A stretch of 32,831 nt of DNA from a virus. The stretch lies in the IMG/VR virus record IMGVR_UViG_3300045431_000463, positions 1 to 32,831 of that record. One strand, 5' to 3'. A program made the translations under genes and the position numbers. Positions within the stretch are counted from its first letter, which is position 1. Every line of letters begins with the position of its first letter. Below are positions 11,126 to 15,844 of this stretch, one piece after another. The notes under the pieces were generated by a model. The model worked only from the letters and a program-made list of their open reading frames with translations, was not told the origin of the DNA and did no database searches.

Positions 11126-12892
11126 CTATACTTCTACTTCATTGCTGTATGTGGTAAATCCGTTCTGTTTTGTCACACGCAGTATATTACTGACTCTACT
11201 AATTAGCTCGTCTCTGTGACTTACTAACCAAACACTTTTTCGAGTATCTCTACTAAATTTCTTAAGTATGGCCAAACTACTTTCCATGCCCGAAGCATCT
11301 AAACCCGAATCCACTAGTTCGTCAACGAACAGTAAATTCATTCTGTGATACAAACTTTCGTAAACATCTCGAAATGCCCAGCTTAGACTCAGTATTAATC
11401 GATTGCGCTCTCCTCTTGAAAGATTATCAAAATCTAAATCTCTACCTAGTTCAGTGATTTCTACACTTAGATCATTTTTAAACTGTACTTGATGCGGTAA
11501 TCCAATTTTTTCTAAGTAATAACCAAGCCTTGTATTTAAGTAATTTAAGTTTTGATCAATAATTTTTTTCCGAATAAAACTATCTTTATTGGTCAATAAT
11601 TTTATTAAAAACTCTTCGTGTTCACGAATCTGTACCAGCTTGTTTATCTTGTTGTAACTGATTTCTACCAGTGCTGTGTTCCGCATTTCCAAAATTTGTT
11701 CAGCATAAGGATCAGTTTCTGCTAATTTATTAGCAATTTGTTGCTGTAATCCAGCTAAAGTAGCACGATGTTCGATGGCTTCGCTTTCTCTATCATAAAA
11801 CACAGTGGGTCTAATACCTAGCTCACCTAGTTCAACGATCTGAGACTGTAGTCTGGCAAATTCAGATTTTGCTTTACCTATTAGATATTCACTTTCTACA
11901 CGATCCTGTCTGCGTTCTGCCAGTGTTTGAGCTTGTTTATGATCATGTATATCTTGCCCACAGGCATGACATTTATGATTTTCTAGTGCCAGTATTTCAC
12001 GATCCAGTCTGGCTAGAGTTTTATGCTCTCGAGAAATTTCAATTTCGGTTCTACGAATGTCGGCTGTGATTTGAATAATTTGTTGTTGGCGACGACTGTA
12101 GTCGGTTAGTTTTCTGTGTGCTTGAATTTCTGCATCAATATCAATTTGATTTAGCTGATCATAGGCTAACTGTAGTTCTTGTATGTCTGTGGTATGTTTT
12201 TGAATCCATAGTGTTTGTCTACGGCTCAAAGAGGCAATTTGTTCTTCGATTCGTTTATTAGCATCAATTTGTGCACGAATATCGGCTTCGGCTTGTGCAA
12301 TGGCTTCTTTACTGGCTCTTATCCGTTCTTTAAGAGTATCGGCCTTTTCACTAAGTAAAGTAATACCCAATAACTGTTCTATGATTTCACGTTGTTCGTT
12401 GGCACGTAAACTTAAAAAAGGCAAGGTATAGGTATTAAGAGCCACTATATGCTGGAACATGGTATGACTCATGTTCAAAAGTTTTTCAATTGCAGCCTGG
12501 GTTTCCCTACTGTCTCCTTGACTTTCGTCGGTGGCACACTGTTCCTGTCCGCTGACATAGAACTTAAGCATGTTAGGTTTACGACCGCGTTCAATACGAT
12601 AATCAATACCATCTTTTTCTAATTCTACAGTGACCAACATGTTCTTGTCGTTGGTCCGGTTGATTAGATTATCTTTCTTGATATTGGTTAGAGCTTGTCC
12701 ATACAAGGCATAACTAACAATGTTTAGCAAGGCCGATTTGCCTGTGCCATTGCGAGCACCAGCATCATCGCCGCCTAGATCTAGATTTTCTCCTAGAATC
12801 AGTGTAAGATCATTACGATTAAGATTGACACTTTGAGTGACGTTACCTATGCTGAGAAAATTTCGTGCTGTTATTGATTTTATTATGATCAT
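11126..12892 (-). CDS. 46: Recombination endonuclease subunit, T4 gp46 / SbcC / Rad50-like ATPase
   Basis: This is the ATPase partner of gp47; the complex resects double-strand ends for recombination-dependent replication. With the ATG at 12890-12892 it has 588 residues. Visible parts: Walker A GARNGTGKS (about 45-53), long coiled coil, zinc hook CHAC (about 307-310), second coiled coil, ABC signature LSRGERNRL (about 485), Walker B LLFVDELVDSGLD (about 520) and a histidine switch VSHRDEL. The ATG overlaps the gp47 stop by one base (TGATG), indicating translational coupling. An in-frame TTG one codon upstream (12895) is a less likely start. Confidence 0.96.
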   Translation of the reverse strand: MIIIKSITARNFLSIGNVTQSVNLNRNDLTLILGENLDLGGDDAGARNGTGKSALLNIVSYALYGQALTNIKKDNLINRTNDKNMLVTVELEKDGIDYRIERGRKPNMLKFYVSGQEQCATDESQGDSRETQAAIEKLLNMSHTMFQHIVALNTYTLPFLSLRANEQREIIEQLLGITLLSEKADTLKERIRASKEAIAQAEADIRAQIDANKRIEEQIASLSRRQTLWIQKHTTDIQELQLAYDQLNQIDIDAEIQAHRKLTDYSRRQQQIIQITADIRRTEIEISREHKTLARLDREILALENHKCHACGQDIHDHKQAQTLAERRQDRVESEYLIGKAKSEFARLQSQIVELGELGIRPTVFYDRESEAIEHRATLAGLQQQIANKLAETDPYAEQILEMRNTALVEISYNKINKLVQIREHEEFLIKLLTNKDSFIRKKIIDQNLNYLNTRLGYYLEKIGLPHQVQFKNDLSVEITELGRDLDFDNLSRGERNRLILSLSWAFRDVYESLYHRMNLLFVDELVDSGLDASGMESSLAILKKFSRDTRKSVWLVSHRDELISRVSNILRVTKQNGFTTYSNEVEV

Positions 12893-13908
12893 CAAAGAGT
12901 TCGATATATTTCTAATAGTAGGTTAGTATTATATTGGTTACTTTCTATAGCAGTCAATGATGAATTCACGATTTGATCCACGCTTTGGAAAGTTATATTT
13001 CCTAACATAATCTGTGTTTCTAGATCGGCCTGTGTGTTAGGAATCAATTTGATTTCTCTACATCCGTATTCATTCATAAAAGTATCACGCAGGAATCCTG
13101 CTTCTTCGTATGTAATATCAATGTTTAAGTTAATTCTAGCATGAGTATTCTTTTTAAGCATTGTTGCTGGATTATCTAGTACGGTACTGAGATCATACAC
13201 ACGATATACGGGCTGGTCGGGCCATGTATGATATTCAGGATCCTGTCCCCATTCTAAAATCATCAGTCCACGTAGATCATCGCCGGCATCGGCATAGTTG
13301 TGCGGAAAACAATTACCAATATAGGTAATATTTTGCTGTGTTTGTCGTTTATGAAAGTGTCCTGTAAACACATGATCAAACCCTACAAAATGATCATGAC
13401 GTATTTCGCCATAGTCTGGCATGGCAATCATGGCGTTCATTAAATAACCAGGTAGTTCAAAGTGTCCAAAACAATATTTGGCCTTAAGTTGAGGAATACG
13501 TTTATAGTCATTGGCTACTAACCATGGAGCAATAACTACATCGCCTTGTTTAAACCAGTCATTGATTATTTTAACATTTGGAAGATGTCTTGCCCACTCC
13601 ACGGATTGAATATCTCTACGGTCGCGATAATAAAGATCATGATTTCCGGGAATAAAATATACTTGATCAAAATTGGCATTTAGATGTTCTAATGCTCGTA
13701 GACTGTAATTCAGCGTTACGATATTTATACTAGCCCTGTTATTGTGCCAATCGCCCAAGAACATGGCTGTTTCACAGTTGTGTTTACGAGCAGTCTCGGT
13801 GGCCCATTTGATAAATTTCAAACAATCTTCGTTGTGAATTTGGCTGTTGCTTTTGAGACCAAAGTGTATGTCAGTAAAGATAGCAGCACGGCGAAATAAG
13901 TTGATCAT
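12892..13908 (-). CDS. 47: Recombination endonuclease subunit, T4 gp47 / SbcD / Mre11-like nuclease
   Basis: This is the nuclease subunit of the gp46/gp47 complex. The 338 residues (T4: 339) carry all the metallophosphoesterase motifs: D13-x-H15 (FTDIHFG), GDWHNNR with D53 and H55, GNHD (N89, H90, D91), then GHFE and finally GHFHKR. These bind the two metal ions. It overlaps gp46 by one base and follows gp55 with a 46-base gap that contains a sigma70-like promoter. No ribosome site is visible before the ATG. Confidence 0.96.
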   Translation of the reverse strand: MINLFRRAAIFTDIHFGLKSNSQIHNEDCLKFIKWATETARKHNCETAMFLGDWHNNRASINIVTLNYSLRALEHLNANFDQVYFIPGNHDLYYRDRRDIQSVEWARHLPNVKIINDWFKQGDVVIAPWLVANDYKRIPQLKAKYCFGHFELPGYLMNAMIAMPDYGEIRHDHFVGFDHVFTGHFHKRQTQQNITYIGNCFPHNYADAGDDLRGLMILEWGQDPEYHTWPDQPVYRVYDLSTVLDNPATMLKKNTHARINLNIDITYEEAGFLRDTFMNEYGCREIKLIPNTQADLETQIMLGNITFQSVDQIVNSSLTAIESNQYNTNLLLEIYRTL

Positions 13909-13954: not shown

Positions 13955-14827
13955 CTAGTCATGTTCGCCGTCGTGATGGTGTCCTGTGTTCATGCCCTGC
14001 CGTGTATAACTAGGATTCAATCCATTGATTTCTAAAATATCATCGCGTAAGTTTTGATTACGTTTTTCAATATTGAGCACACGAGTAAATGAATTGGTAA
14101 TGGCTGCTGTGAAGTAAGCGAATGGATTTTGACTTTTACTTTCGTCAAACTGTAAGCCAATTTGGCTTAATTGCAGCAGTGCTTGACTACGCATTTCATC
14201 ATTGTAGGTATAACCTCGCCAGTTACTACGAGTAGCGTAACGCTCACACAGCCTTACAAACATAAACGCTAAAGTTTTTGTCATGGTTCCGTGATCTTTA
14301 CTCCAGCGACCGGTTTCAAGATCTCCTACCCAATGGCTTTTACCTACACAGTAAAATTCGCCCTGTGACGTGATCTTGTAATGTTGAAAAGGTGGAAAAT
14401 TGCATTTTACATGACTGGTTGATTCTATTATTTGAGGTTCGATGTCTTCGTATTCAATGTAGATTTTATCATCATCTTCTGGTTCAATCTTTTTAAACTT
14501 TTTAACAGCTTCATTTAAAATAGGTATATGTTCCCAGGTCATTAATCGAAAAACCACATCTGTGGTTTTAATTTCTGTTGATGAAACTAGAAATTCTTCT
14601 AATTTGCGTTTCTCGCCGCGATTAATAGCTGTTTCTAGAGACAGCTTTGCCAGTCGTTCGTTGCGATTTTCTTTGGCAATTTGAATAGTTTCAGCAGTGA
14701 TTGTGTTCAACTGATGCACTATCAAGTCATAGTCGGCGACGTCTGAATTTAAGTAACTACAATAGGTATTTTTACTACGATGTATTTCTTTGAGTATATC
14801 TTTGTTATTTAGGTAATTACTTTTAAT
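13955..14827 (-). CDS. 55: Late transcription sigma factor, T4 gp55-like, probable ATT start
   Basis: gp55 directs host RNA polymerase to TATAAATA late promoters. The core is recognisable at about residues 200-260 of the long form: SNWRGYTYNDEMRSQALLQL, then FDESKSQNPFAYFTAAITNSF and IEKRNQ, matching the DNA-binding core of T4 gp55. From the first ordinary start (TTG at 14725) the product would lack its N-terminus. The frame stays open upstream and encodes KSNYLNNKDILKEIHRSK, like T4 gp55's N-terminal YVNNKELLQ. AAGGAG at 14836-14841 points to ATT at 14825-14827, giving 290 residues (T4: 185). About 120 residues are inserted between N-terminus and core. The tail is His/Asp-rich (GHHHDGEHD). 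Confidence 0.85.
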   Translation of the reverse strand: MKSNYLNNKDILKEIHRSKNTYCSYLNSDVADYDLIVHQLNTITAETIQIAKENRNERLAKLSLETAINRGEKRKLEEFLVSSTEIKTTDVVFRLMTWEHIPILNEAVKKFKKIEPEDDDKIYIEYEDIEPQIIESTSHVKCNFPPFQHYKITSQGEFYCVGKSHWVGDLETGRWSKDHGTMTKTLAFMFVRLCERYATRSNWRGYTYNDEMRSQALLQLSQIGLQFDESKSQNPFAYFTAAITNSFTRVLNIEKRNQNLRDDILEINGLNPSYTRQGMNTGHHHDGEHD

Positions 14828-14835
14828 TTTATTCT

Positions 14836-14841
14836 CTCCTT
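14836..14841 (-). promoter_or_regulatory. Strong ribosome binding site that sets the gp55 start
   Basis: Read leftward this is AAGGAG, eight bases before an in-frame ATT. It follows the in-frame stop TAA of the upstream sequence and lies about seven bases into the transcript predicted from the promoter at 14855-14882. No ATG, GTG or TTG is nearby in any frame. Confidence 0.75.
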
Positions 14842-14854
14842 ACCCATTATAGGG

Positions 14855-14882
14855 ATTATAATATATTTTTTTCTAAAGTCAA
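14855..14882 (-). promoter_or_regulatory. Sigma70-type promoter for gp55 and the recombination genes
   Basis: Read leftward: TTGACT (14877-14882), 16 bases rich in A, TATAAT (14855-14860). This is near consensus, with transcription expected from about 14848 and a leader of about 20 bases. It would let the host sigma factor make gp55 before late genes are turned on. Confidence 0.8.
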
Positions 14883-14932: not shown

Positions 14933-15844
14933 GTGTCCCACAAGTACGTCCTGCCATCGGAATCTTCTCTTAATATTGAAGAACAGTATGCTCGTGACAA
15001 AGCAGCTTGGGAAAAAGCTAATCGTGAACGGGAAAATCATCCAACAGCAACTTCGATCAGTTCTTCTTTAGACACTGATCCTGCACAAACCAGATTGGCA
15101 GGTTCTGGTTTGAATCCTGGGGGTGTAGCTAATTATAATTTTTATAATCCTTTTGGTCTAAGTGTACAGTTTGTAAATCAAAATCAGCCTTCGAAATCAA
15201 AAGATTGGAAAGTTCGCATTAGCGTGTCTCCTAATTTACTTTGGTTTAATAGCGGTATTATGCTTCCATTGGCCGATCACCGCGGAGTCATATTCCCATA
15301 TACCCCGGAAATTGTAGTACAACATATTGTAAATTATGCTTCCATTCGTTTAACCCACAGTAACTATCCTTATCAGGCTTATGAAAATAGTGAAATTTCT
15401 CCTATAACAATCACTGGTGATTTTACAGCACAAACCAAACGCGAAGCCGATTATGTGTTAGCATGTATTTATTTCTTTAGATCTGTAACCAAGATGTTTT
15501 TTGGACAAGACACTTATCCAGTTAAAGCTGGCAATCCGCCGCCATTGGTTTATCTCAATGGTTACGGTGAAAAAATTTTTAAAAATACACCCTGTGTGGT
15601 AACACAATTTCAATATACTATGCCCAGCGAGGTTGATTATATAGAAACCACTAGCACAGGCCAGGCCGAGTCGGCAGAGGCCAAGCAATCCTTGGCCTCC
15701 GATAGTATTGGAATTAGTACTAGAATACCCACAGTGACTAAATTATCAGTGACACTGATTCCTGTTTATAGCAAACGCAATATCAGTGAATTTAATTTAG
15801 AAGAATTTGCACTGGGTCGGTTGATTGATAAAGGATTTATTTAA
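14933..15844 (+). CDS. 48: Baseplate tail-tube cap/initiator protein, T4 gp48 or gp54-like
   Basis: These proteins cap the baseplate hub and start tail tube growth. The 303-residue protein has a polar N-terminus (1-75) and a tube-fold-like body with conserved stretches: NPFGLSVQFVN (72-82), SPITITGDFTAQTKREADYV (about 155-174), GNPPPLVYLNGYG, and a C-terminus LIPVYSKRNISEFNLEEFALG ending KGFI, familiar from gp48/gp54 proteins of T4-like marine phages. I cannot decide between gp48 and gp54. It starts with GTG, with AAGGA nine bases before. The next ATG follows its stop directly. Confidence 0.72.
   Translation: MSHKYVLPSESSLNIEEQYARDKAAWEKANRERENHPTATSISSSLDTDPAQTRLAGSGLNPGGVANYNFYNPFGLSVQFVNQNQPSKSKDWKVRISVSPNLLWFNSGIMLPLADHRGVIFPYTPEIVVQHIVNYASIRLTHSNYPYQAYENSEISPITITGDFTAQTKREADYVLACIYFFRSVTKMFFGQDTYPVKAGNPPPLVYLNGYGEKIFKNTPCVVTQFQYTMPSEVDYIETTSTGQAESAEAKQSLASDSIGISTRIPTVTKLSVTLIPVYSKRNISEFNLEEFALGRLIDKGFI

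Follow-up and report, generated by a model that had tools for sequence, protein, structure and literature searches.

The analysed stretch, here called the window, is the 32,831 nt of IMG/VR record IMGVR_UViG_3300045431_000463, and on its minus strand lies a gene for a late sigma factor homologous to gp55 of phage T4 (Table 1). Membership of the gp55 family is established by sequence homology; beyond the matches given in the table, the protein matches PHROG_234 (E=1e-23), and a Pfam search with it returned no match. The neighbourhood is T4-like, with gp47/gp46-like genes downstream and with baseplate, portal and resolvase genes elsewhere in the window. The N-terminal motif of T4 gp55 (KYNYVNNKELL in 7d7c) is also that of the window protein, whose codons after the ATT encode KSNYLNNKDILKEIH, the T4 counterpart being KYNYVNNKELLQAI; the first-pass annotation had rightly likened the YLNNKDIL of this region to the T4 N-terminus. 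Between the motif and the T4-like sigma domain, proteins of the window family carry about 120 extra residues (window 14290-14665, residues ~55-180) that T4 gp55 lacks.

Table 1. Features of the gp55 locus and its surroundings in the window
Feature	Position	Strand	Evidence or remark
CDS of 290 codons for a gp55-like late sigma factor, ATT start, coordinates inclusive of the stop	13955..14827	-	PHROG_12791, sigma factor for late transcription, E=5.5e-78; T4 gp55 7d7c, E=5e-5
ATT start codon	14825..14827	-	at the homologous codon, 59 other distinct start regions have ATT and 6 contigs ATC, the remaining relatives ATG/GTG/TTG
Shine-Dalgarno AAGGAG, 8 nt before ATT	14836..14841	-	duplex energy -9.2, top among window genes compared
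In-frame stop TAA, overlapping the Shine-Dalgarno	14840..14842	-	sequence
TTG, first conventional start, codon 35 (ATT = 1)	14723..14725	-	without Shine-Dalgarno; as a start not conserved
Predicted -10 TATAAT, leader about 20 nt	14855..14860	-	sequence
Predicted -35 TTGACT, 16 nt spacer	14877..14882	-	sequence
gp47 (SbcD-like), next gene downstream of gp55	12892..13908	-	phrog_100, E=2.3e-59
Divergent virion gene upstream of gp55	14933..15844	+	no co-directional gene upstream for coupling translation to gp55

After the TAA, the gp55 frame reads GGA GAG AAT AAA, then the ATT, and then AAA AGT AAT TAC CTA AAT AAC AAA GAT (KSNYLNNKD). The TAA excludes a longer N-terminus in that frame, and no ATG, GTG or TTG occurs between it and codon 35. 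It had been proposed from the letters of the window that coding extends 34 codons upstream of the first conventional start, that a stop stands directly before it, and that the ATT is the candidate correctly spaced from a strong AAGGAG. These points are borne out, and the call of the gp55 start at ATT is strongly supported by sequence comparison. Variation in codons 2-34 is chiefly in the third position (diversity 0.17/0.17/0.53), by which measure this segment is under constraint at the protein level.

Sigma70-like promoter elements upstream predict a leader of about 20 nt, in agreement with the transcription start and leader expected by the first-pass annotation. Most relatives have an extended -10, TGNTANNAT, about 24 nt 5' of the gp55 start. 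In many of them (e.g. L004, L009, L082, L110) a palindrome like GTTAGTATACGCTAAC lies over the predicted -10 and is possibly an operator. In one subclade (L114, L125, L133, L151, L103) a small hairpin of variable sequence precedes the Shine-Dalgarno (SD) sequence, downstream of where the transcript is predicted to begin, and by virtue of this restriction a conserved leader hairpin was rejected as a general feature. Since the upstream neighbour of gp55 is divergently oriented, no preceding cistron is available for translational coupling or re-initiation.

When gp55 relatives were sought without regard to their start codon, the best 80 had mostly ATG, GTG or TTG at the homologous position, and seven (L001, L003, L008, L015, L020, L033, L037) had ATT. 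A pattern search of IMG/VR with the ATT fixed yielded 78 other contigs, representing 59 distinct start regions, that have ATT at the homologous codon; about 98% of the ATT relatives have GGAG, and most have no in-frame canonical codon upstream. The corresponding search for ATC and ATA found ATC at the homologous codon in 6 contigs of two lineages and no gp55 starting at ATA, the single ATA match (L278) being internal to an ATG-started gene; a pattern search for CTG starts likewise gave none. In the bodies of the gp55 genes isoleucine is encoded by ATT 473 times, ATC 310 times and ATA 250 times, a usage that includes ATA and so sets the start position apart from an ordinary isoleucine codon. 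In four further contigs (L346, L381, L388, L389) an ATT stands in another register, one residue further upstream, where gp55 genes of the MRKVNYLNN type have their ATG. One relative (L117) has a gp55 reading frame of 617 codons, as against about 290, and may be a fusion. The gp55 genes of the cultured relatives PA5oct, Phosso, Atu_ph07, BF, RaK2 and T4 all start with ATG, as do the six gp55 relatives (53-56% identity) recovered from genome assemblies; no ATT start was found in either set. No phage gene starting at AUU is reported in the open-access literature that was searched.

AUU, an exceptionally rare start codon, and sometimes AUC, appears to be the start of gp55 in many uncultured T4-like phages. 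The first-pass annotation had held that an ATG in relatives would point to a sequence error or a unique variant. ATG, GTG or TTG is indeed present in some, but the ATT of dozens of divergent relatives, and the ATC of a few, mean that the ATT of the window is neither.

ATT alternates with ATG, GTG and TTG at one homologous codon. On trees of 207 and 143 gp55 proteins, which are unrooted and make gains and losses indistinguishable, ATT is strongly clustered, yet at least 7 to 8 changes are forced on well-supported branches, and a single clade for the ATT/ATC genes is rejected (AU p = 1.5e-4). The clade of the window gene comprises 21 ATT members and one TTG member, its nearest relative (L098) being 77% identical.

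The noncanonical codon is accompanied by a stronger SD. Duplex energies are -8.2 for ATT and -8.7 for ATC genes versus -5.9 for canonical homologues in the same register (p = 1e-9, with rows treated as independent); in phylogenetically independent pairs the association runs about 5 to 1 in the same direction and is not significant (median p 0.22), the pairs being few. Spacing is nearly fixed (class 6 in 51/61), and AAA occupies positions -3 to -1 in 55 of the 66 ATT/ATC genes. The SD of the window gene is about as strong as that of E. coli infC (-9.3). Computational comparison of these sequences thus shows ATT/ATC to be a conserved and recurrent start position in gp55 with a compensating SD; with no usable canonical start besides, gp55 would on sequence criteria fall in the class of AUU/AUC-start genes that includes infC and pcnB.

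The phenomenon is largely specific to this gene. In a set of 2,356 long open reading frames from the retrieved loci, an ATT/ATC start with an SD and no canonical codon nearby was confined to gp55, apart from two frames (L213, L215) lacking comparative support, while a looser comparative survey of 4.7 Mb of related DNA supported ATT starts for gp55 and one further family only; both surveys demanded a clear SD, and cases with a weak one would escape them. A genome-wide relaxation of start codons was rejected on these grounds. The second family (about 170 residues, PHROG_16202, function not assigned) has ATT in 6 of 80 relatives, nearly all the others having ATG, and its ATT starts follow AAGGGG or AAGGAG (L415 at G024:C1:177706, L444-L447, L486, L513).

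Several readings would dispense with initiation at the AUU, or with a host factor acting on it. Initiation at a canonical TTG or ATG at codon 35 or later, leaving the upstream part untranslated, could draw on the ATG found at codon 35 in 26 of the 64 ATT/ATC rows; however, an ATG is equally common there in rows with a canonical start, codon 35 is ATT, ATA, ATC, TTA or CTT in many others, an SD is absent before every canonical codon 35, and the constrained codons 2-34 match T4 gp55, so that this reading is scarcely credible. Just as little can be said for a canonical start gained through a sequence error or a programmed frameshift from the out-of-frame ATG at 14847-14845 (MGKERIKLK...), because that ATG lies 5' of the SD, where transcription is predicted to begin, just half of the relatives have an ATG in the 35 nt upstream, canonical-type codons there being scattered in position, and the ATT reading is common to the 59 distinct relatives, on whose evidence sequencing error and a unique variant were rejected. 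An upstream gp55 start was rejected along with the downstream start and the frameshift. A decoding change of the phage's own, through either a phage IF3 or a tRNA of initiator type with the anticodon GAU, matched to AUU/AUC, would account for the use of AUU and AUC and not AUA, which is the spectrum of a GAU anticodon. It is nevertheless very improbable, given that ATT starts are confined to gp55 and one other family and that four of the five large ATT contigs encode either no tRNA or just a single tRNA-Arg. In the remaining one (G023, the contig of L110, 338 kb) 40 tRNAs are predicted, among them one Ile(gat), three Met(cat) and one with a CTA anticodon. The tRNA content of these five contigs disfavours a phage initiator tRNA with an isoleucine anticodon, and an IF3 C-domain is absent from 50 ATT contigs, including those of 338 and 360 kb, most of the contigs being fragments. 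The agents would therefore be the IF3 and the initiator tRNA of the host.

A closer competitor accepts the AUU as the true start but takes it to set a constant, low level of gp55, as a static throttle or as near-neutral drift tolerated by a strong SD, with no dynamic regulation by IF3. GTG and TTG, which are also weak starts, recur in gp55; an inefficient AUU start limits translation of E. coli pcnB, to judge from the title of a reference in PMC9410913; and compensation in the SD is expected after any weakening of the start, which may be all that the strong SD reflects. Against this, low output could be had from a weaker SD, and the SD has instead been strengthened, while ATT has been kept through deep divergence, as in the window clade, although one base change would restore ATG. 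On balance this alternative seems rather unlikely. With a codon of the kind that IF3 discriminates against placed behind an SD close to its maximum, control that responds to IF3 would be a better fit than plain low expression, for which a weaker SD would suffice. Retention of AUU or AUC in preference to AUG, with the SD near its maximum, seems to imply selection for sensitivity to fidelity, beyond weak translation alone.

The preferred reading, which we consider fairly likely, is that host IF3 would reject AUU and AUC but the strong SD would keep initiation at a sufficient level, and the output of gp55 would be low and sensitive to fidelity. The gp55 mRNA, transcribed from a promoter of its own and carrying a leader of some 20 nt, would begin to be translated at the AUU, where AAGGAG would pair with 16S rRNA and place the 30S subunit on this codon. 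Most 30S-AUU complexes would be destabilised by IF3 because the pairing of the initiator tRNA with AUU is imperfect. Synthesis of gp55 would be slowed and would track IF3 activity or initiation fidelity, and the late sigma factor, and with it perhaps the timing of late genes, would be limited as noncanonical starts limit and time IF3 itself (infC) and SigR. The first-pass annotation had suggested a translational throttle on the early-to-late switch; this is plausible in light of the strong SD, the restriction of the codon to AUU and AUC, and the gene specificity, and the phage probably does throttle the switch through start-codon fidelity. Control through AUU would not be essential to the lineage, since many relatives have ATG, GTG or TTG.

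Precedents come from bacteria. IF3 represses translation at starts other than AUG, GUG and UUG; infC starts with ATT in E. coli, as the first-pass annotation had stated, and with ATC in Streptomyces, a parallel to the AUC of some gp55 genes (PMC5472188). Like the window gp55, E. coli infC has AUU followed by AAA, a strong SD (GGAGG) and a codon of the IF3-discriminated class, but it is autoregulatory, its product being a fidelity factor, whereas gp55 is a phage sigma factor on which IF3 control is proposed here. Streptomyces sigR encodes a sigma factor kept at a low level by a noncanonical start that is conserved in a lineage, as we infer for gp55; repression of its start by IF3 sets the stoichiometry of sigma to anti-sigma. 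It differs in having GTC rather than ATT, in being bacterial, in its coupling to the anti-sigma gene rsrA and in that repression by IF3 is experimental (PMC5472188). E. coli pcnB, with infC the only AUU gene noted for that organism (PMC9410913), shares the AUU start but has it in the context GAGGTGTACT-ATT-TTT and does not encode a sigma factor. T4 gene 55 itself encodes the homologous protein, with the motif NYVNNKELL, behind a strong SD (-9.1), but starts with ATG.

A broader proposal is that phages have repeatedly evolved an IF3-sensing start (AUU or AUC with a strong SD) for their late sigma factor, by which host fidelity or the ratio of IF3 to ribosomes would time the early-to-late switch, a second family occasionally doing likewise; it is offered tentatively, as having somewhat less than an even chance of being right. 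To our knowledge, IF3-discriminated noncanonical starts are known for just a handful of bacterial genes, and in gp55, a key regulatory gene, a start of this type appears to be conserved and to recur across many phage lineages. Standard gene callers accept only ATG, GTG and TTG, and will place the start of such gp55 genes wrongly. Such a start suggests that phage development can be coupled to the fidelity of translation initiation, and the change from AUU to AUG amounts to a one-codon switch that bears on why a phage would restrain its late sigma factor.
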